Source: a virus
Reading direction: 5' to 3' (one strand)
IMG/VR virus record: IMGVR_UViG_3300021964_007578
Coordinates: 1-35,404 of that record
DNA: 35,404 nucleotides
In this document: in pieces, positions 5,257 through 28,807 of the stretch
Layout of the letters: every line of letters starts with the position of its first letter
Position numbering within the stretch: position 1 is the first letter of the stretch
Translations under genes and position numbers: made by a program
The notes under the pieces: model-generated
The model's input: the letters and a program-made list of their open reading frames with translations, nothing else
The model's database searches: none
Told to the model about the DNA's origin: nothing

Positions 5257-5820
5257 CTATAAAATGTGATCCGCAATATTGAGCTTGATCAGATCTTTTG
5301 CGGTGAAGTACTGATCGCTTGGACTGTCAAAATACTTTTTAACCTGTGCTAAAGTATAACCAGTCGCTTCTCGTAAAATTTGATAGGCACGTTGTTCGCA
5401 GTTTTGATTTTCATGCATTGCTGCTTTCATGTCGTGCATCTTAGCGTCCATAGTATCGCTATGTTGATGGTTCATTATACCTGTGTTCTTTCCTATATAC
5501 CTTTCGCCTTGCTTACCACTTGCAAAGATTAAAAACCCTGCACTCATGATTGCACCAACACCTATTGTTCTTATATGATGATAACTTTGTTTCATAACAT
5601 CAATAAGTGCAAACGCTTCGTATAGGTCTCCACCATATGTGTTTACATATAAGGTAAGTGTTTTCTTTGGCTTCTTGTTTAAATTGGCAGAAACAATCCA
5701 CTTAATAGTTTGGCTGACGTTGTCATTAGCAATATCTCCACTTAGATAATGAATGTCATTATCGTGTAGACTCTTGTCTATTGCATCACTGGCTGTCCAA
5801 TTCTCGTACTTTGCTGGCAT
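5257..5820 (-). CDS. ClpP-like serine protease
   Basis: A 187-aa ClpP/crotonase-fold protease. The catalytic triad appears intact: Ser93 in GVGAIMSAGF (ClpP GxxxSMA), His118 in GIMNHQHS (ClpP MIHQP) and Asp169 in SPSDQYFTAKD (ClpP DRFxSAxEA). The oxyanion-side strand LYVNTYGGDLYEAFALID matches ClpP LxINSPGG. Length is close to cellular ClpP without a propeptide. In phages such enzymes can be capsid maturation proteases; here it lies among early-type genes under its own sigma70 promoter, so I favour a role in cytoplasmic proteolysis, perhaps with the ClpS and tmRNA also encoded here. That link is inference. Confidence 0.85.
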   Translation of the reverse strand: MPAKYENWTASDAIDKSLHDNDIHYLSGDIANDNVSQTIKWIVSANLNKKPKKTLTLYVNTYGGDLYEAFALIDVMKQSYHHIRTIGVGAIMSAGFLIFASGKQGERYIGKNTGIMNHQHSDTMDAKMHDMKAAMHENQNCEQRAYQILREATGYTLAQVKKYFDSPSDQYFTAKDLIKLNIADHIL

Positions 5821-7798: not shown

Positions 7799-9859
7799 TC
7801 ATTTTGTTGTTGCAATGAACACTCCATTCCAATCTTTAGGTAACTTTTGTGTTTTCATATATTCACAACGTTCAATCCACATAGTATAATACCCTTCCAT
7901 CTTAGCATCAAAGTGTCTCGATAGTTTTTCACAAATCCATATTGCTTCATCAAACTTTTGTTTTTGATACAACTCATGCATTTCTTGATGCTGGCGTTGT
8001 GCTGTGCGCCATGCTGGTTTAGGATTGTCTAGCACTGTCCAAATACCAATACCTACAGTTTTACCTTTAACTGCTAGGTCGTCTACTTTTAAGTAGAAGA
8101 AGTCGTCTTTGGTTTGTTGATATGTTGCATCTCCTACTAGTAATAGGCAACCATATTCTTTACACTTAGATTCTATTCTTGCCGCTGTACTTACAGAGTC
8201 GCCAAGAACATCATAAGAGTGCCTTGCGGTGCTACCCATTTCGCCAAGGTAACCAAGGCCAGTATTAATACCGGCACCCATGCCAACGGGAGGACGTCCT
8301 TCATTTGTAATTTGTTCATTAAATTTCTCCACTGCTTTAAGCATATCTAATCCACATTGCACTGCGGTCTTTGGATGTTCTGGATCTTCAATTGGTGCAT
8401 TGTGTACATGCATACTTGCATCACCAATGTACTTAATAACCATACCATCGCTGTCTAATATAGGTTGTGTAATAGCGTCCATATAGCCATTCATAATTTT
8501 GGTTAGGCCTTTTACATCATCACCAAAACTTTCACCTAATGGTGTAAACCCACGCAAGTCTGAAAATAGAATACTAACTTCTTTCTTCATACCTTCTTTA
8601 ATAAGTGCTGGATTTTCTTGTAGCATACGCACCACTGTTGGTGATGCATACCCTGCAAATTGCTTCTTAATCTTTTGTTTTTCAAAGAATTCTACTACAA
8701 AACGGTTAAATGTAGCATGGAAACCTACTGCTGTGCCTACTAACAGTATCCAGCTCACATCCCATAGCTGTAAATGCCCTTTAAACAGCGTATAAGCGCC
8801 GTACAAGCACGTTGCGTACATAACAAGTACCAATGCACCCACTACGTAATACGGTGCTAAAACCGCTGCAATTATAAGAATAAGCCCAATTACGATACTA
8901 GCAGCATACTCTACAAATGTAGCATAATCAAAACGTACAATGTTATCGCCATTTACAATGGTCTGTAATGCTGTTGCAGTCATTATATGACTGTATTGTT
9001 CTCCGTTTGGAGTAGCAATAACTGGTGCAAGTCCTTCTGCTGTAATACCAATAATTACAATCTTGCCTTCCATTCCCCAAAAATAATCTTCTTCTGATGC
9101 ACTATAAACATCAAAGTTTTTGTTCCAACGCAACCAAATTCTACCATTTGGATCTGTTTGAATAGTTTGATACGCCGGCACACGCATAGCAATGATGCCA
9201 CCTTCGCCGGCTTTAACTTGATAACTAGGATCGCCTACAGCAACACGGATTGTTTCCATAGTGATACTTGGATATACTTCGTCACCTACACGCATTAGCA
9301 ATGGTAAGCGTCTTACAACACCATCTATTTCAGGTGCAGTATTAATTACTCCAACGCCTGCTGCGTTTTGACCTAGTAAAGGTATAGGACCTAACATGCC
9401 TGGCCATTCAAATAACCAAGGCATAGGATCTCCTATTTTAGCAACACCTCTTGGTACTGCATTTTTATTTGTTTGCGTTGTTCCTGTTTGTGCAATAACA
9501 ACACCATTGTTTAGCAACATCTGTGCTAGTTCAGTATCTCCACCTAGCCTATCATTCTCAGAAAATAGGATAGGCATAACAATAACGCCAGCACCATGCG
9601 CTCTTAAGTTTTCAATAATACCTGCTAATACATCACGCTTCCATGGCCATTGTCCGTACTTTTCTATAGATGCTTCGTCTATTTCTAATATAGCAATGTC
9701 TTTGGATAGTGGTTCTACTGTGTCATAACTTTGAATAAGATCAAAAGATTTGAGTCTTAAAGTCTGTTTTACATAGGGATCGTTGAACCCTAATATACTA
9801 ATAACCGCTAAGGTTAGAAGTGCTGTAGACCAATGTGTTATAATCTTTGACAGTTTCAT
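7799..9859 (-). CDS. CHASE2-domain adenylate/guanylate cyclase (class III)
   Basis: A 686-aa protein: N-terminal membrane segment (about 10-25), extracytoplasmic CHASE2 sensor (about 35-310; DIAILEIDEASIEKYGQWPW), three membrane helices (about 315-380), then a class III cyclase domain (about 425-620). Metal aspartates are Asp434 (LFSDLRGFT) and Asp480 (KYIGDASM); adenine-specifying Lys476 and Asp550 and transition-state Arg561 are present. The usual Asn before that Arg is Ser557. Expected product is cAMP from a periplasmic signal. A late-type promoter lies 5 nt before the ATG. FecR and CHASE2 proteins often co-occur in bacteria; here the FecR gene lies upstream in the same cluster. Confidence 0.9.
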   Translation of the reverse strand: MKLSKIITHWSTALLTLAVISILGFNDPYVKQTLRLKSFDLIQSYDTVEPLSKDIAILEIDEASIEKYGQWPWKRDVLAGIIENLRAHGAGVIVMPILFSENDRLGGDTELAQMLLNNGVVIAQTGTTQTNKNAVPRGVAKIGDPMPWLFEWPGMLGPIPLLGQNAAGVGVINTAPEIDGVVRRLPLLMRVGDEVYPSITMETIRVAVGDPSYQVKAGEGGIIAMRVPAYQTIQTDPNGRIWLRWNKNFDVYSASEEDYFWGMEGKIVIIGITAEGLAPVIATPNGEQYSHIMTATALQTIVNGDNIVRFDYATFVEYAASIVIGLILIIAAVLAPYYVVGALVLVMYATCLYGAYTLFKGHLQLWDVSWILLVGTAVGFHATFNRFVVEFFEKQKIKKQFAGYASPTVVRMLQENPALIKEGMKKEVSILFSDLRGFTPLGESFGDDVKGLTKIMNGYMDAITQPILDSDGMVIKYIGDASMHVHNAPIEDPEHPKTAVQCGLDMLKAVEKFNEQITNEGRPPVGMGAGINTGLGYLGEMGSTARHSYDVLGDSVSTAARIESKCKEYGCLLLVGDATYQQTKDDFFYLKVDDLAVKGKTVGIGIWTVLDNPKPAWRTAQRQHQEMHELYQKQKFDEAIWICEKLSRHFDAKMEGYYTMWIERCEYMKTQKLPKDWNGVFIATTK

Positions 9860-10623: not shown

Positions 10624-11916
10624 TTAGTTTTGTGTTACTGTAGTTGTTGCACAGCCGTTTGAATTGCCGCAATGTTGGCTAATTGAATATGTTTGTGATG
10701 TTGAACTATCTTGTGTAAGGTCAAGTGTTGCACTATGACCTGTCATGCTAACACTTGCATTATGATTGCCTGTGCCGTCTTGTGTAATTCCAACAGTTTG
10801 ATCGCTACCAACTGCAATTTCTACATAGTGTGATCCTGATCCTTGCTGATATAAATCGATATCATTATCGTCACCTTGAACGCTTAGGAATGCTTTCTTA
10901 TCTCCGTCATTCAGTTGACTTGCTAAAATATTGTTGCTATCTCCATCAAGATCTAATGCAAAGAAATGACCATTATTTCCGATACCATTGTTATGCTTTT
11001 GTGTAATGCTTAATACATTAGAGTCACCATTAACATCAAACTCAACTCTGTTGTCGTCTGCTGTAGCGGCGTCACCTTGAGTAACAGTTGTTGTATTAGA
11101 GTCTCCTGTAACATCAAACAGTATTGCATTGTTGTTACCTCTTTGTGTTAATGTTGTATCATTGTTATTACCAATGATGTCAGCGTTTACTATATTATTA
11201 GTTGTTGAACCAACACCTGCTATAAGGTTATCACTTCCGTCTTGAACTATATCAAGCTCGTTATCATTACCAACCTGGTTGATGTATATACCACTACCAT
11301 CATGTGTTACTGCTCTTGATGTTGTAATTTGTGTAGTCTGTGCTGAACTTATGCTTGATGTGTATGATGGTGCTGTGGTTGAGATATCAGTTGAGGCATT
11401 CACATAGACCGTACCAGCAGTAGCATTAGGCACATACCATAACTGCCTCAACACTGCCCCACCACTCCATTCCGAGAACCATCGTTCATAGGTGTAGGTC
11501 TCTCCTGCCTGAAGTGTGATCGTGCCTGTCCTTGTTGCTGGAGCATGTAGACCAGACCAATCATCAATCACGGTGGTGCCATCTATCTTCAACAGTGAAC
11601 CATCGTCATCTTGATTGTAGAAAGTTACTGTGACGCTGTCACCTGCTGACCCATTGGACGGAATCGGCACAGTGATGTAACCATCAAGGTGAACAACCAC
11701 ATAGTCACTCCTGCCTGAGTCCAATACAACACCACCGCCCCAATCGTAGTTCATTGTGCTGTCTGACAAAGTGCCTGATGAAAGTAAGGTGTTTGATGAT
11801 GTGGGACAAGGCCAACTTGGACAATACCAAGTTTCGTAATTAACATCTGCCAATGCTTGTATAGGTAATAATAATAATAAAAATAATAAACTATTTCTGA
11901 ATAATGTCAATATCAT
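10624..11916 (-). CDS. PA14-like domain fused to curlin repeats, secreted
   Basis: A 430-aa protein beginning at ATG 11916 (GGAG upstream), with a signal peptide ending PIQALA. Residues about 25-165 form a PA14/GLEYA-like beta-sandwich: HLDGYITVPIPSNG, YNQDDDGSLLKIDGTTVIDDW, ITLQAGETYTYERWFSEWSG and VLRQLWYVP. The rest carries curlin-like repeats (IYINQVGNDNELDIVQDGSD, TTLTQRGNNN, VGITQDGTGNHN) ending TTTVTQN. Curlin repeats form cross-beta fibres; PA14-like domains bind glycans. The PA14-like coding part (about 11341-11820) is near 50% G+C against about 30% in the repeats, which suggests recent acquisition. It overlaps the FecR gene by 26 bp. Proposed: fibre subunit with a binding head exported via CsgG. 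Confidence 0.85.
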   Translation of the reverse strand: MILTLFRNSLLFLLLLLPIQALADVNYETWYCPSWPCPTSSNTLLSSGTLSDSTMNYDWGGGVVLDSGRSDYVVVHLDGYITVPIPSNGSAGDSVTVTFYNQDDDGSLLKIDGTTVIDDWSGLHAPATRTGTITLQAGETYTYERWFSEWSGGAVLRQLWYVPNATAGTVYVNASTDISTTAPSYTSSISSAQTTQITTSRAVTHDGSGIYINQVGNDNELDIVQDGSDNLIAGVGSTTNNIVNADIIGNNNDTTLTQRGNNNAILFDVTGDSNTTTVTQGDAATADDNRVEFDVNGDSNVLSITQKHNNGIGNNGHFFALDLDGDSNNILASQLNDGDKKAFLSVQGDDNDIDLYQQGSGSHYVEIAVGSDQTVGITQDGTGNHNASVSMTGHSATLDLTQDSSTSQTYSISQHCGNSNGCATTTVTQN

Positions 11917-13024
11917 TACTGCCGTCTCCAAGTGAGTAGTCTCTTGTTTCAAAATCTGATTGTTGTAAATTAATGTTATAACCGTTCTGTTGATCTAATA
12001 TTAATTCTACTTGCATACCTGTTCCGCTATCACGTCTAAATACCCAGTTAGGATTTTGATTGTAAAGTTCAATACCTGTTACAGGATCTTTTCCGTATTT
12101 ACTTTTTGCTTTTGATTTAGATAAACTATCACCTAGTATCTTTGATAACATTTCGTTAAGTTGATCAAGTACATTAACAAGGAAGTTTTGATCTAAATAG
12201 TTTGAATCTAAGTCTGTTTGCCAAAGATCTGGATCTTCATCAAGTTGATTTATATCTAAACCGTCGTACTCTAAAAAATCAAATCCTAAGAAGTCTGCTA
12301 GTTCTACTGCTCTTTCTCTTTCTAGCTCGTACTCAATTTCTTTAGGCCTACGGATAATAAGCAGGTTATCAATAAGTGATTCATTAATGTCAATGATAAT
12401 AGGATCTAAAGGATTTGACTCTGGTACATCTACAACTGTTGCTTGAAATGCTTTGTTTAGAATAACTTGGCCAGCATCTGATTCTACTGATATCTCACCT
12501 ACAACACAGATGCGCTTTGTTCCTACCGCTGAACAACTTGGTAAAAGAATAATTGTTGAACTTCCTGTTTCATCAACAGTCATTGTAAAGTCAGTACCGC
12601 GTACACCAATAGTAGCGGTTGGTGTAGTGATTTTTATATCTTGCCTACTGTTCTTTGCAATCTGTCCTGATGCATATCTAATAGTTCCAAAAGATGCTTT
12701 GAGGGCAAGTTTACCTTTTGAAGTACTAGGATCATACACAAACTCATCAATAATTAGTTTACTGTTCTGTGTTACATCAACTCTAGTTTCGTCTACAAAT
12801 TCTATAGCAGTTTTACCTTGGCCTGTACGAACGGTATCGTAACTTACTATAGTACTACCTTTTTCAGAAGTTAGTTTTTCTCCTGCTTGTCGTTCAATAA
12901 TAGTATTACCAATCTGCTGGGTTACATTTCCGATAGAAGCAACATTCGCCATCGCGGGTACGGTGATAGTTAGACAAACTATCATGCCTGCACGTAACAG
13001 AATTTTGTCCAGCAGCCGGATCAT
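11891..13024 (-). CDS. Secreted FecR-domain protein
   Basis: A 377-aa exported protein. N-terminal hydrophobic segment (LLRAGMIVCLTITVPAMA), then a FecR domain with the strongly conserved ITTPTATIGVRGTDFTM and preceding DTVRTGQGKTAIEFVDETRV and GTIRYASGQIA segments. The C-terminal half is acidic and linker-like (DEDPDLWQTDLDSNYLDQ), and its last residues (GDGSNDIDIIQK) look like a curlin strand. In bacteria FecR domains sense signals in the periplasm; here no sigma factor is adjacent, but a CHASE2 cyclase lies in the same cluster. I infer a surface-anchoring or sensory partner of the curlins. It starts 4 bp after the curlin gene. Confidence 0.85.
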   Translation of the reverse strand: MIRLLDKILLRAGMIVCLTITVPAMANVASIGNVTQQIGNTIIERQAGEKLTSEKGSTIVSYDTVRTGQGKTAIEFVDETRVDVTQNSKLIIDEFVYDPSTSKGKLALKASFGTIRYASGQIAKNSRQDIKITTPTATIGVRGTDFTMTVDETGSSTIILLPSCSAVGTKRICVVGEISVESDAGQVILNKAFQATVVDVPESNPLDPIIIDINESLIDNLLIIRRPKEIEYELERERAVELADFLGFDFLEYDGLDINQLDEDPDLWQTDLDSNYLDQNFLVNVLDQLNEMLSKILGDSLSKSKAKSKYGKDPVTGIELYNQNPNWVFRRDSGTGMQVELILDQQNGYNINLQQSDFETRDYSLGDGSNDIDIIQK

Positions 13025-13028
13025 AAAG

Positions 13029-13796
13029 TTAATCCGTTTGCGTAATGTCTATTGTTGCATCGTTTCCTACAGTAGTAAGACTCAACACTTTATCTTCAAC
13101 ACCTGATTGTGTAATGTTCGCAATCGAACCACCACCTTTCATATTAACTGTCATACTGTGACCATTAACATCACCAGTTCCTGATTGTGTAATTGCAACT
13201 GTATTAGCAACCCCACTTTCAACTGATGTGCTTGATGCTGTGTTACCGCCGGCGCCAACGCCTGTTAGTGTTGTTGAGCCATCGTTACTCATATCAAAGT
13301 CTAAATCAGCATTTTGAGCATTAAGTGTAAAAGTTAGAGTATCTGCATTACTGTTATTAGCCAAATCAATTGTACCCACAAAGTTCTGTGCGTCACCTGA
13401 TCCACCAATTGTTGCTGTAATGTCAGCACTTCCGCCTGTTACATCAATACTTAATGATACTGTTTCACAGTTACCAGCACCAGCGTTATCACAGTCTAAG
13501 TCGACTTGGTTACTGTTACCAGTTAAGTTAATGTTACCTGTATAGGTATTACCTTTAATGGTAGTTTCAATAACGTTAGTGTCACCTACTTGTGATACAG
13601 AAAACGTCATATCATTACCTTGCAACAAAACTCCTGTTGCATTAGTACCTAATACGTTATTTGTTCCGTCTTGTGTTACATCTAAGTCTAAGTCATTACC
13701 AGATTGCTGTATGTATATGTCATTAGCATAAGCTGGAGATATCAACCCTAAACCAAGAATAAAAAGACTACTTGCTACTATTGTCTTTAGTTTCAT
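13029..13796 (-). CDS. Curlin-repeat fibre protein (CsgA/CsgB-like)
   Basis: About 255 aa. Signal peptide (VASSLFILGLGLISPAYA) then repeats with the curlin pattern I-x-Q-x-G-x-x-N: DIYIQQSGNDLDLDVTQDGT, FSVSQVGDTNVIE, VAITQSGTG, IANITQSGV and a terminal IDITQTD. A middle Asn/Thr/Gly-rich part (LNAQNADLDFDMSNDG) has weaker repeats and one possible disulfide pair (DCDNAGAGNCE). It is longer than E. coli CsgA (151 aa). I choose the second of two ATGs (13796) because GGGAG lies 5 nt before it; the first is only 2 nt away. It overlaps the csgG end. Expected to polymerise outside the cell after export. Confidence 0.87.
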   Translation of the reverse strand: MKLKTIVASSLFILGLGLISPAYANDIYIQQSGNDLDLDVTQDGTNNVLGTNATGVLLQGNDMTFSVSQVGDTNVIETTIKGNTYTGNINLTGNSNQVDLDCDNAGAGNCETVSLSIDVTGGSADITATIGGSGDAQNFVGTIDLANNSNADTLTFTLNAQNADLDFDMSNDGSTTLTGVGAGGNTASSTSVESGVANTVAITQSGTGDVNGHSMTVNMKGGGSIANITQSGVEDKVLSLTTVGNDATIDITQTD

Positions 13797-14802
13797 CATC
13801 GCTCCCTTGACTGTCTATTCCGTCAGCCAATTTTTTAATTAACGGATCGTTATGCCAACACATGTTGTCTGCGTCACAATAGTAACTTGTTACACCTGGA
13901 TACTGCTTATTAAATTCATCTTCTGGTAATTTAATAATAGCTTCATGTCTCTGGTGTATAGTCGGACGCGACTCCGGTATTAACATACTCTCTAGTTCAC
14001 TTTCCCTCTTGAACTTCCAAAGTTTCTTTTCTTCACCTTTCATTATCAACTCAACTATTGCTGCTTCAATTGCTGTACGAACTGCATAGTTGGTTGGTTC
14101 GTTTACTGCTGCGCCTACTTCAATTTCAAGTGCCTTGGTGCCCATATCTAAGAAACGAAATACATCGCCTCCGCTACTATAACTTGCAATTTTCTTTTCA
14201 GTTGCCACAGTTAGGAGTACTTCTCCTGTTTGTGTACTGATTATGCGCATCGCCACAGTAACTTGGTCTGTTCTATAAGATGTCTGACCGCCAATGCCAA
14301 AATATCTAGCACCAACACCCCCACTCTCCATATTAGAATCGTAGCCAACAACTCCACCTTCTAATATCAGCCCCGCAAAGAGCAGTGGTTTTAAATCAGT
14401 CGGATCGTTTTCGTAAACTTCTCTAGTTGATCTAATTAACTGTCTTTCTTTAACTAGATTATCTAAGCCTACTCGTTCCACAACTTGGAACCACTTTCCT
14501 CCACCCACTTCTTTCAGAGCATTTATAACCCAAACCTCAGCACCTTGAGTAACCGCACTACTGAGCTGACTAAAACTGTCATTAGGCTTACGTTGCCCTG
14601 TTTTGTCTAGAAAACTGTAAATTGCAATTGTTATTTTTGGTCCATCGATAGCTGGCACGGTCTCCAATACACTTTGGTATGGACTCTCCGCTTTCACGGG
14701 TGGTGTCCAATCCTTTTTTGTATAGGTGGCCGCGCAACCTGTTATTGCTATAGCCAGGAACACAAATAACAAACTTCTAATTAAACTAATCAATCCTGTC
14801 AT
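13768..14802 (-). CDS. csgG: CsgG-family curli secretion lipoprotein
   Basis: A 344-aa lipoprotein: signal peptide with lipobox AITGC (Cys23), then a CsgG/HfaB fold with ITIAIYSFLDKTGQRKPN, AVTQGAEVWVINALKEVGGG, WFQVVERVGLDNLVKERQLI, LLFAGLILEGGVVGYDSN and VTVAMRIISTQTGEVLLTV. CsgG forms the nonameric outer-membrane pore of type VIII secretion. It is longer than E. coli CsgG (277 aa) owing to a C-terminal extension with two cysteines (YYCDADNMCWHND). TAATG overlap with csgF. No csgE homologue is visible, so gating may differ. Confidence 0.93.
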   Translation of the reverse strand: MTGLISLIRSLLFVFLAIAITGCAATYTKKDWTPPVKAESPYQSVLETVPAIDGPKITIAIYSFLDKTGQRKPNDSFSQLSSAVTQGAEVWVINALKEVGGGKWFQVVERVGLDNLVKERQLIRSTREVYENDPTDLKPLLFAGLILEGGVVGYDSNMESGGVGARYFGIGGQTSYRTDQVTVAMRIISTQTGEVLLTVATEKKIASYSSGGDVFRFLDMGTKALEIEVGAAVNEPTNYAVRTAIEAAIVELIMKGEEKKLWKFKRESELESMLIPESRPTIHQRHEAIIKLPEDEFNKQYPGVTSYYCDADNMCWHNDPLIKKLADGIDSQGSDDETKDNSSK

Positions 14803-16762: not shown

Positions 16763-16770
16763 TATTTATC
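16763..16770 (-). promoter_or_regulatory. Late promoter GATAAATA, 5 nt before ATG
   Basis: GATAAATA on the minus strand, TTAGT, then ATG at 16757. Same spacing as at 9865, 30915 and 31651. Predicts a leaderless late mRNA. Confidence 0.65.
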
Positions 16771-17464
16771 CAAGTTTTGGAAATAACATATCTGTGCAGA
16801 ACTTATCTACATCTGCTTCGTTAAGTCCTAAGCTCTTCATAGTACGTGGAGTGTGTGGATTTTGTTGCTGATTATGGCAGTAATAATCTTGTGAAGCCTG
16901 TACTAATGCAGTATCGCCTTCGCCTTTAGTAAGTCCTACTTCAGCAAAATATGTATGTAAATTATCTAATGCAAGATCGATTATAGCAACTGCTTCTTCT
17001 TCTGTGCTTACATTGCCGGCAGCAATCATGCTTGGACTGAAAATGTTCTGAGCCCATTCAGGTAGTTCACGTTTTTTACTAGGAATAAAATCTTCTACTG
17101 CTTCTGCATAACCTTGTATCATAGGATGATTAGGATCACTACTAGCACTAACATCATGAAATGCACCGGTCATCTTCTTCTTACCTGCTATAACATCAAA
17201 GCCGTAAATAGGTGCTGGGTTATCTAATGTTGGAAAAATGCACACATGCATCATCCAGAGGCCTTTTGTATCACGAGCGTCTACAACATCAATATGAGCC
17301 CTACGAATATCGTCGTTACGCCAAACACGGTTAATCCAACTACCGTCTGGTTTATTAAAGTAATCAAGTCCTGGCTCTGAAAATTCTGTTGCTTTGTCAT
17401 CAAAAATTTTGATAATTTCATTTTGACAGTCAATTAATCTGTCCCATATAACACTATCTGTCAC
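16766..17464 (-). CDS. pcyX: Ferredoxin-dependent bilin reductase (PcyX/PcyA-like)
   Basis: A 232-aa member of the FDBR family. Matching segments: LWMMHVCIFPTLDNPAPIYG followed by FDVIAGKKKMTGAFHDVS (with the His and the catalytic Asp of PcyA's GxDxVA region), and the C-terminal QDYYCHNQQQNPHTP, then DVDKFCTDMLFP. FDBRs reduce biliverdin IXalpha using ferredoxin. It looks closer to PcyA than to PebS; PcyX, known from uncultured marine phages, makes phycoerythrobilin. GTG start behind GGAG, overlapping the heme oxygenase gene by 11 bp, so the two are coupled. Product specificity needs a phylogeny. Confidence 0.87.
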   Translation of the reverse strand: MTDSVIWDRLIDCQNEIIKIFDDKATEFSEPGLDYFNKPDGSWINRVWRNDDIRRAHIDVVDARDTKGLWMMHVCIFPTLDNPAPIYGFDVIAGKKKMTGAFHDVSASSDPNHPMIQGYAEAVEDFIPSKKRELPEWAQNIFSPSMIAAGNVSTEEEAVAIIDLALDNLHTYFAEVGLTKGEGDTALVQASQDYYCHNQQQNPHTPRTMKSLGLNEADVDKFCTDMLFPKLG

Positions 17465-18002
17465 CTTTATGCTCCATCAACTCTTTGAAAAGTTCAGTGG
17501 CAAAGTCAAAGCAAACTTTTGCTTCGTCTGCCATATTATCATTGCACTTCGCTCTAATCTTATCTTTGTAATCGTTGATGTCGATATCTCCAAACTTGTA
17601 CATTTCTCCATTGCCTGGTACACGTTTTGCAATCATCTGTCCGCCACTTAGGTCTCCCATGTGTCTAACATAGACATGTGCCATTAGCCTATTAGGATCG
17701 TCCATAATATCTTTCAAATACATTACATACTTGTGAGTAGTTTTTAGTGTAGGTGGTCTGTCTTCTTTTTTCCATAGTTCTAAGAAGTCAGCCATAATTC
17801 TCTTTGAACGTATTAGTTCAGGTACGTCATCTAGTAAGCCGTGTTGTTGAGCCATTAGCTCTAGTAGTTCATAAGCTGGAAACTGATTCCACAAATAAAG
17901 AGCATAAAACTCTGGATCAATTTTTCCAGAGAACATAACCTTTACAAATTCTTGACGCTCAGCGTTAGTATGATTTTCTTTTGTTAATTCTTTTAAGCTC
18001 AT
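17454..18002 (-). CDS. ho1: Heme oxygenase
   Basis: A 182-aa heme oxygenase. Proximal heme ligand His11 in KENHTNAERQ and the distal-helix motif YVRHMGDLSGGQMIAKRVPG (Asp117, Gly residues over heme) are intact. It converts heme to biliverdin, CO and Fe2+ with ferredoxin electrons. It is slightly shorter than cyanobacterial HO1 (about 240 aa), as phage versions often are. It precedes pcyX with an 11-bp overlap, forming a heme-to-bilin operon. AGGAG lies 9 nt upstream of the ATG; a TATAAT-like element (about 18024-18029) is present without a clear -35. Confidence 0.93.
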   Translation of the reverse strand: MSLKELTKENHTNAERQEFVKVMFSGKIDPEFYALYLWNQFPAYELLELMAQQHGLLDDVPELIRSKRIMADFLELWKKEDRPPTLKTTHKYVMYLKDIMDDPNRLMAHVYVRHMGDLSGGQMIAKRVPGNGEMYKFGDIDINDYKDKIRAKCNDNMADEAKVCFDFATELFKELMEHKGDR

Positions 18003-18042: not shown

Positions 18043-18354
18043 TTATCCACGTTGTTCCTCAAGGGTGAGTTTAAGTGGCGAGCCATTTATCCTAGCAATC
18101 TTCGTTGCTTCTAATGCTCGTTGTTCGGCAATTTCAAAAACGTATTCACCAACAACTGCTGCACCGTGATTGTGTACTTCTAAAGTTTTCTTTTTAGCAC
18201 TGTCTTCATCATGTTTGAACACTGCCTTCAAAATGTCAATAACAAGTTCCATCGGTGTAAAGTCATCGTTTATAACAACGACCCGCCACAACTTAGGTAT
18301 TGAAACATCAATATCTATTTTTTCGTCAATGACTGCATCTGTATTGGTACTCAT
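18043..18354 (-). CDS. clpS: ClpS N-degron adaptor
   Basis: A 103-aa ClpS. Core: LWRVVVINDDFTPMELVIDI (Asn-Asp-Asp for the substrate's alpha-amino group, Met gatekeeper) and KTLEVHNHGAAVVGEYVFEI with the conserved His; AR-x(4)-PLKLTLEE closes the fold. ClpS delivers N-degron substrates to ClpAP. Start at 18354: its SD GGAG overlaps the earlier in-frame ATG (18366), which is therefore less likely. Flanked by Hsp20 and heme oxygenase genes on the same strand. In the phage it may redirect host proteolysis. Confidence 0.92.
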   Translation of the reverse strand: MSTNTDAVIDEKIDIDVSIPKLWRVVVINDDFTPMELVIDILKAVFKHDEDSAKKKTLEVHNHGAAVVGEYVFEIAEQRALEATKIARINGSPLKLTLEEQRG

Positions 18355-18370
18355 TACTTTCTCCATAATC

Positions 18371-18400: not shown

Positions 18401-18853
18401 TTACTTACTGTCGATCACTGAACTATCGTTAATCTTAATAGTCTTAGGCTTTAATGCTTCTGGTACTTCACGTACTAAATGCACATTCAGCATACCTAGT
18501 TCAAGGTTTGCGTTTGCTACCTTAACGTGGTCAGCAAGTGTGAACTCTCTACGGAAGTTGCGTCCGCCAATACCTTTGTGTAGATAATTGACATCTTCAT
18601 CTCCTTTAGGAGCAGTTCCCTCAATCTTTAATTGATCACCGTCTGTAGTGATTGAAAGATTGTCCATACCAAAGCCGGCAACTGCTAACGAAATCATATA
18701 TTCGTCATCGTTGATTTGTGCTATGTTGTATGGGGGATAACCATTTCCGTTTGGACTATTTGCGAACTGTCTTTCCATTTCGTTGAATAGTCTGTCAAAG
18801 CCAATTGTAGCTCTGTGGAAGTTTGGTAGGTCTAGAGTTGTTATTCTTGTCAT
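18401..18853 (-). CDS. Small heat shock protein (Hsp20/IbpA-like)
   Basis: A 150-aa alpha-crystallin-domain chaperone. The N-terminus (FHRATIGFDRLFNEMERQFA) and core (YPPYNIAQINDDEYMISLAV, GIGGRNFRREFTLADHVKV, LNVHLVREVPEALKPKTIKI) match IbpA-type proteins; the last holds the conserved V-PE-x-KP. Such proteins hold unfolded polypeptides and are near-universal in marine T4-like phages. AAGGAG precedes the ATG. A GATAAATA late-like motif lies upstream at 18943. Confidence 0.94.
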   Translation of the reverse strand: MTRITTLDLPNFHRATIGFDRLFNEMERQFANSPNGNGYPPYNIAQINDDEYMISLAVAGFGMDNLSITTDGDQLKIEGTAPKGDEDVNYLHKGIGGRNFRREFTLADHVKVANANLELGMLNVHLVREVPEALKPKTIKINDSSVIDSK

Positions 18854-18942
18854 AGTTTTTCTCCTTTAATAAGCAAGATTTAATTTAGGTTCCCTAATGG
18901 GCAACCAACTCTGCACAAAAGATTCAGTCTTTCGTACACATT

Positions 18943-18967
18943 TATTTATCATTGAAAAATGATAAAT
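18943..18967 (-). promoter_or_regulatory. Late-type promoter motif within a 10-bp stem hairpin, upstream of hsp20
   Basis: GATAAATA on the minus strand (18943-18950) forms one side of a perfect inverted repeat, ATTTATCATT/AATGATAAAT (18944-18967, 4-nt loop). It lies between guaC and hsp20. A late promoter for hsp20 with a dyad is the simplest reading; no U-tract supports a terminator. Confidence 0.5.
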
Positions 18968-28439: not shown

Positions 28440-28740
28440 GTCAATAAAGTGCAACTTTTCTGTTGCCAGGTAAGTTGCCAACCCCGTTACCTAGTTAGAC
28501 TAGGCAGCAAGAGCAAAATTATTGTTTGCGTCTATAAAGTTGCTTGATTTACGGTCATCGCCTACCGGTAACTCCACGTTCTCTCATACATCAGTCGATC
28601 CTAGTTCGCCCCCATCATAAACACATTGGGATTGTATTGTTCCACGGACGGTCTTGATACAAACATCGTCCAATGTGCTTATGGTGGAGGCGCGGGGTAC
28701 CGCCCCCCGGTCCTGTCTGTCGTTGATTGGCTTCAACGTT
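28440..28740 (-). ncRNA. ssrA: Permuted two-piece tmRNA (ssrA)
   Basis: Minus strand, acceptor piece first: T-stem-like CGGGG/CCCCG, then CGCCTCC-ACCA ending at 28682. An intervening segment (28614-28681) with a long stem follows, then the coding piece from GGGGGCG (28613), which pairs with CGCCTCC. GAACTAGGATCGAC is the usual tmRNA 5' signature. The tag frame GCA...GCC-TAG (28529-28500) encodes ANNNFALAA. It is followed by a hairpin and an H-type pseudoknot (GGTAA/TTACC with GCAAC/GTTGC). Order acceptor-spacer-coding is the circular permutation known in alphaproteobacteria and some cyanobacteria. Outer ends are approximate. Driven by the promoter at 28750-28778. The T-loop GGCGGTA is unusual. 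Confidence 0.92.
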
Positions 28741-28749
28741 ACAGTTATA

Positions 28750-28778
28750 TTTATACTATCATATTATTGGTTTGTCAA
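28750..28778 (-). promoter_or_regulatory. Sigma70-type promoter of the tmRNA
   Basis: TTGACA (28773-28778), 17-nt spacer, TATAAA (28750-28755) on the minus strand, placing the start near 28740-28743. The -10 is within TATAAATA, so the same site could also serve as a T4-like late promoter. Confidence 0.82.
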
Positions 28779-28780
28779 CC

Positions 28781-28807
28781 AAAAAAATAGGCCCCGAAGG
28801 ACCTATT
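28781..28807 (-). terminator. Intrinsic terminator after the cold-shock gene
   Basis: Stem AATAGGTCC/GGGCCTATT with a TTCG tetraloop followed by TTTTTTT on the minus strand, 18 bp after the stop of the gene at 28825. Separates the csp operon from the tmRNA promoter. Confidence 0.92.

Follow-up and report, generated by a model that had tools for sequence, protein, structure and literature searches.

The heme oxygenase and bilin reductase genes of an uncultivated aquatic phage close a conserved operon that begins with the heat-shock gene hsp20 and the protease adaptor gene clpS, and this operon is preceded by a conserved, structured leader RNA that resembles the ROSE thermometers. The stretch of DNA analysed, referred to here as the window, is a fragment of 35,404 nucleotides (IMG/VR record IMGVR_UViG_3300021964_007578). 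The gene pair itself is already known from the pelagiphage Mosig and from the work of Wegner et al. 2024, and the reason for hemO and pcyX in phages of apparently non-photosynthetic bacteria has been called "still enigmatic" (PMC11480375). Our analysis leans, with somewhat better than even confidence, towards a heme-to-bilin route that would operate in a late phage heat-shock operon, as a stress and proteostasis module of the virocell. The heat-shock operon, the structured leader and a near-complete heme route in the nearest relative make the role of hemO and pcyX directly testable.

As the first-pass annotation had claimed, overlapping genes for a heme oxygenase (HO) and a PcyX-type reductase lie on the minus strand of the window. 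The ho (hemO) gene at 17454..18002 (182 aa) matches PF01126 with 80.6 bits against a cut-off of 23 bits, and pcyX at 16766..17464 (232 aa, GTG start), encoding a ferredoxin-dependent bilin reductase (FDBR) and predicted phycoerythrobilin (PEB) synthase, matches PF05996 with 59.8 bits against a cut-off of 31 bits. Their reading frames share 11 bases (17454-17464), and a GGAG stands seven bases 5′ of the pcyX GTG, a start codon matched by the corresponding codon in the closest relative, L003. Amino-acid identity to L003 is 96% for PcyX and 95% for HO, with dS of 0.75 (pcyX) and 1.03 (ho) and a dN/dS of about 0.03 for both. Such a low ratio at high dS argues that the pair is not a product of chance, and indicates that ho and pcyX are functional genes under strong purifying selection.

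The window HO matches heme oxygenases in the PDB with E-values down to 2.6e-14. Its proximal histidine is H11, G120/G121 are also invariant, and the GDLSGGQ motif of the glycine-rich distal helix is conserved, so that by domain, proximal histidine and distal helix the protein is of the HO-1/HemO type, with the corresponding predicted activity. The reductase scores 264.6 bits against the PcyX structure 5OWG and about 56 bits against structures of PcyA, and its AlphaFold model (pLDDT 89.6) has 5OWG as its top PDB fold match (TM 0.92 by target, E 1.5e-16). A maximum-likelihood tree, the check that had been proposed for this gene, places the reductase inside the FDBRs rather than outside them, clustered with Mosig, 5OWG and viral sequences (support 98/94). 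This PcyX clade is sister to the Acetobacteraceae (alphaproteobacterial) PcyA and apart from cyanophage PcyA and PebS; given long branches at some deeper nodes, we rely on the PcyX clade itself only. Cyanophage PebS (P-SSM2) and PcyA (P-SSM4, P-RSM4) share with the window the FDBR fold and phage-borne bilin synthesis, but the cyanophage PcyA proteins are at most 30% identical to the window reductase and form a separate clade.

Residue patterns agree with this assignment. Asp55 has been named as the PcyX-specific residue (PMC11480375), and D59 of the window reductase aligns to position 55 of Mosig PcyX; Asp occupies this column in 174/174 relatives that have it, whereas cyanophage and Acetobacteraceae PcyA have Glu, and D59, H73 and D90 are kept in all aligned PcyX. 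Thus, the reductase is a PcyX by family, fold, clade and Asp55 equivalent, with PEB, a pink pigment, as its predicted product. Against a PEB-making enzyme it can be held that the peat-bog phage CB_2 likewise has a hemO cassette, yet its FDBR turned out to be of the PcyA type and makes PCB (PMC11480375), although the CB_2 protein lacks the PcyX Asp that the window reductase and all 174 of its aligned relatives carry. The earlier proposal that the pair would convert heme to biliverdin and then to a reduced bilin is upheld by sequence, clade and fold, and a route from heme through biliverdin to PEB is well supported at the sequence level. HO would open heme to give biliverdin IX-alpha, CO and iron, and PcyX would reduce the biliverdin by four electrons to PEB, most likely with host ferredoxin. 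The suggested search for ferredoxin was only partly rewarded, as one was found in Mosig and none in 27 window-type records. The lack of a phage ferredoxin outside Mosig counts against the proposed route, and the electron donor of PcyX is therefore probably a host protein.

The pair is not a stand-alone operon, as first described, but the end of a longer one. Upstream of ho on the same strand are clpS at 18043..18366 (a ClpAP protease adaptor; PF02617, 85.9 bits; NCBIfam ClpS, E 4e-23) and the operon's first gene, hsp20, at 18401..18853 (a small heat-shock protein; PF00011, 54.7 bits), preceded by a structured leader. We compared 82 loci, namely the window, Mosig and 80 loci retrieved from IMG/VR with PcyX as the query. 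Both Hsp20 and ClpS families are present in 80 of the 82, and wherever all four genes occur together (79/79 loci) they run hsp20-clpS-ho-pcyX along a single strand. A second set of 80 loci, whose contigs are partly shared with the first, was retrieved with an HO alignment as the query, as HO as a single-sequence query yielded four loci only. ClpS lies beside HO in all 80. The gene that follows HO is pcyX in 78, and the remaining two contigs stop 36 and 257 bases past HO; HO without PcyX is thus never seen among the HO-based loci whose contig does not end first. Genes for GroES, GroEL or DnaK often lie just upstream of hsp20. From its constant association with hsp20 and clpS, the pair would act under proteotoxic or oxidative stress. 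Against this reading stands Mosig, in which the pair sits amid 2OG-Fe(II) oxygenases, ferrochelatase and neck genes. Given this different context, the association with chaperones characterizes the window's lineage and does not extend to all phages with HO-PcyX. In other respects, Mosig EXVC030M and marine metagenomic contigs (PcyX_EBK42635, PDB 5OWG) resemble the window, namely in HO-PcyX order and in overlapping or adjacent frames, and the Mosig proteins are 52% (PcyX) and 43% (HO) identical to those of the window, with the same PcyX residues.

The leader of the operon is a two-hairpin RNA at 18860..18915 on the minus strand (covariance model 42.2 bits, E 1.4e-8), located between the hsp20 start codon and a T4-late-promoter-like box, GATAAATA, at 18943..18950 (minus strand; position read from the printed strand). 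In 75/80 loci, where 10 would be expected, the motif NATAAATA stands no more than 150 bases ahead of hsp20, and it is not above chance before clpS, ho or pcyX. In our reading, ho-pcyX would be the translationally coupled end of a phage heat-shock operon that is transcribed late. In the second, terminal hairpin of the leader, CUUGCUU pairs with the AAGGAG Shine-Dalgarno sequence (SD) and one G is bulged; a terminal U(U/C)GCU/SD hairpin with a bulged G, together with an upstream hairpin, defines ROSE thermometers (PMC11182007). The window has a single copy of the leader motif where 0 would be expected, and CU[UC][GA]CU...GGAG is found in all 76 dereplicated leaders, with A in place of G in a few.

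A covariance model built from a gap-free training set of eight leaders gave 80 matches in 982 kb, both strands searched, and all 79 matches other than the window's lie directly before genes for Hsp20 (61), DnaK (15) or GroES (3). As MAFFT alignments of the raw leaders misplaced loops, counts were made on the model matches. Pairing is kept in 97.6% of cells compared with 81.8% after shuffling, and 190 double changes were counted compared with a shuffled mean of 48 and 13-29 for slid structures, a large margin even allowing for the favourable bias that comes from fitting the alignment to the structure. Most of the covariation falls in hairpin 1, which has a conserved GCC...GG core, while hairpin 2 is nearly invariant and is supported chiefly by its conservation. 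The same leader motif precedes hsp20 in HTVC008M, Melnitz, HTVC103P, two Synechococcus phages, AG-345-L05 and Agrobacterium phage Atu_ph07, and was not found before hsp20 of S-TIM61. ROSE-like leaders of phage dnaK, groES and hsp20 genes include L198:691-744, L037:5114-5167, L195:592-643, L214:2891-2947 and L217:495-549, and such leaders also occur in cultured methylophages, pelagiphages and cyanophages.

By analogy with ROSE elements, the leader would mask the hsp20 SD in its terminal hairpin. It shares with the ROSE families (RF01832, RF02523) an upstream hairpin, a terminal U(U/C)GCU/SD hairpin with a bulged G, and a location 5′ of hsp20, but it is phage-borne and shorter, occurs before dnaK and groES as well, and scores below the Rfam gathering thresholds. 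For the window leader, ROSE_2 has the best E-value among 4227 Rfam families, at 20.5 bits against a gathering score of 65, and the Melnitz hsp20 leader matches ROSE_3 with 34.1 bits against a gathering score of 43. Since none of the leaders examined attains an Rfam ROSE gathering score, we call the element ROSE-like rather than a ROSE member. We regard Rfam matches of the leader to families such as mir-5879 and KRAS_3UTR as chance hits. Thermosensing is suggested by homology, and a conserved RNA switch of another kind, sensing a ligand or a protein and leaving the operon free of temperature control, is possible, if somewhat unlikely. Such a switch would agree with nearest-neighbour folding, in which the SD of most leaders does not open between 5 and 45 °C (a model that ignores the non-canonical pairs of ROSE elements), with the GCC...GG core of hairpin 1, to which no role has been assigned, and with the scores under the Rfam ROSE cut-offs. 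It is less easily reconciled with a terminal U(U/C)GCU/AGGAG hairpin with a bulged G that is found only 5′ of heat-shock genes, or with ROSE_3 being the sole cis-regulatory Rfam match (E below 0.5) at phage hsp20 leaders. A phage-borne ROSE-like element would represent a class not yet among the few phage RNA thermometers on record (lambda cIII, SPbeta blyA and a sigma70 gene; PMC11182007).

In some relatives, further genes lie between HO and PcyX. The two have nothing between them in 60 loci, a halogenase in 9, a carbon-nitrogen hydrolase in 2 (L046:9202-9996 (+)) and a small coiled protein in 10, while in one more locus two further genes accompany that protein; the small conserved protein (L064:9723-10001 (+)) is present in eleven loci. 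The flavin-dependent tryptophan-halogenase-like gene at L048:8508-10004 (+) matches PF04820 with 310 bits and lies in overlapping frames, and the halogenase is also found in L037-L039, L043, L045, L049-L051 and L117-L127. Its position is precisely between the two in each of the 11 complete loci retrieved with a halogenase query, all from one subclade, and it is possibly a bilin-modifying enzyme.

Besides HO-PcyX (G001 53270-54506), the 107 kb contig of L003, which is the window's nearest relative, codes for AlaS, HemB, HemC, HemE and HemF. AlaS (571.7 bits, cut-off 338.55), HemC (269 bits, cut-off 164) and HemF (299.6 bits, cut-off 297) exceed their cut-offs, and HemE and HemB are above Pfam but below NCBIfam equivalog cut-offs. 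HemF, HemC, HemE and HemB are consecutive at G001 84655-88184 (+; L225:4655-8184), and AlaS lies at G001 95840-97045 (+; L225:15840-17045), about 42 kb from HO; the hem stretch falls outside the part of the genome covered by the window. No HemD, protoporphyrinogen oxidase or ferrochelatase was seen. Coproporphyrinogen oxidase and porphobilinogen deaminase have been noted earlier in pelagimyophages (PMC7029224), and the valaS-hemO-pcyA/X cassettes, including that of CB_2 (Wegner et al. 2024, PMC11480375), likewise combine tetrapyrrole synthesis and breakdown genes in one phage. The nearest relative differs from these cassettes in the distance of AlaS from HO and in the addition of the four Hem genes. 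As far as our literature search showed, the fixed hsp20-clpS-ho-pcyX order is provisionally new; the same search, which covered few subscription journals, returned no interposed halogenase, no ROSE-like leader of a phage heat-shock operon and no HemB/C/E/F set together with HO-PcyX, and ClpS, Hsp20 and the halogenase are absent from the main text of PMC11480375.

Several purposes had been proposed for the pair at the outset. Stress or redox protection appears to fit the gene context best. Iron supply, in which HO would free host-heme iron for phage enzymes and PcyX would clear biliverdin and so keep HO turning over, has been discussed before (PMC11480375) and could serve the NrdA- and NrdB-like proteins (class Ia ribonucleotide reductase) and two 2OG-Fe(II) oxygenases of the window, with four such oxygenases near the pair in Mosig. 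We nevertheless regard it as unlikely, because making and then breaking heme gains no iron, and tetrapyrrole genes accompany HO: AlaS in 9/28 records, and HemB, HemC, HemE and HemF in the nearest relative. The constant company of PcyX and, in one subclade, the addition of a halogenase between the two argue in the same direction, and from these three features we think that bilin rather than iron is the output. HemB and HemF are limited to 1/29 records searched, the nearest relative, and this counts against our reading. An extended reading, in which a line AlaS-HemB-HemC-HemE-HemF-HO-PcyX of large aquatic myophages, its last steps placed with chaperones and ClpS under ROSE-like thermometers, would yield a reduced bilin, halogenated in one subclade, that protects the infected non-photosynthetic cell, is speculative and fairly unlikely as a whole.

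Chromophore supply, in which PEB or another PcyX product would load onto a host phytochrome or bilin-binding globin and alter signalling during infection, is distinctly improbable. The PCB made by the CB_2 vPcyA does assemble with phytochrome (PMC11480375), and bilin-binding globins accompany pre-PcyA in heterotrophs (PMC10151467), but the phytochrome option of the earlier list finds no phage-side support, with neither a PHY domain nor a phycobiliprotein-type globin on the phage records. Phytochrome PF00360 was absent from the window and 27 related records, and phycobiliprotein PF00502 from the 27 records and Mosig, apart from one sub-cut-off match inside a 1580-aa frame. A light-harvesting role in cyanobacteria, of the kind served by cyanophage PebS and PcyA, seems very remote, although Synechococcus 7942 made to express PcyX carries PEB on its phycobilisomes (PMC13197396): photosystem, phycobilisome and other photosynthesis genes are absent from the phage records, the tmRNA of the window is of alphaproteobacterial type, and the PcyX clade is sister to alphaproteobacterial rather than cyanophage PcyA. 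That the phage has no visible photosystem genes was confirmed for the reaction centre family PF00124 in the window and the 27 records, a result that rests mainly on the larger relatives since the window is a 35.4 kb fragment. For a protective role in the heat-shock operon, the selected output would probably be heme removal and a supply of reduced bilin in the stressed virocell, purely by analogy with the mammalian HO-1/biliverdin-reductase pair, and not light harvesting.

The genes around the operon bear on the host. A permuted tmRNA at 28448-28791 (minus strand; RF01849, 122.9 bits; ARAGORN tag ANNNFALAA) is of alphaproteobacterial type and, with the lack of photosynthesis genes, agrees with the earlier view that the host is probably one without phycobilisomes. 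The curli and cyclase genes resemble those of the myophages HTVC008M and Melnitz, which share the csgF-csgG...cyclase order, curli homologues 55-59% identical and an hsp20 leader of the same type; NrdA of HTVC008M is 70% identical to that of the window. These phages differ from the window in that their records hold no HO or PcyX match. Relatives of the window include contigs of 275-353 kb. We read the window as part of a large T4-related myophage, perhaps with an alphaproteobacterial host. A label of "Mosig-like pelagiphage" was dropped, since a search of the 107 kb relative turned up no capsid, portal, sheath or terminase of the Mosig type, and the structural proteins that a 275 kb relative shares with Mosig have no more than 33-40% identity; the Gp23 capsid model PF07068 matched nowhere, controls included, and is uninformative.

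Other features of these phages deserve mention. Curlin-repeat proteins (PF07012), one with a PA14 domain, lie beside csgF/csgG at 10624-11952 (-) and 13029-13799 (-), with a FecR-domain protein between them (11891-13024), whereas CsgA/CsgB were reported missing in pelagimyophages (PMC7029224). A protein with CHASE2 and adenylate/guanylate cyclase domains is encoded at 7799-9859 (-), where its gene lies downstream of those for curli, an order shared with HTVC008M. Phage-type PcyX was also found on metagenome-assembled genome (MAG) contigs labelled Halobacteroidaceae, Pirellulales, Neomarinimicrobiota and Rickettsiales (L093-L096). We rejected these as host genes, as the full-length ones fall inside the phage PcyX clade; an FDBR was found in 0/31 other genomes of the order of the L096 MAG, and the four contigs are probably phage DNA binned with bacteria. 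Finally, the window encodes a ClpP-like protease (5257-5820 (-)) and a 275 kb relative encodes ClpA (L234:509-2767 (-); 876 bits, under the equivalog cut-off), which together with ClpS may constitute a phage-encoded ClpAPS system.
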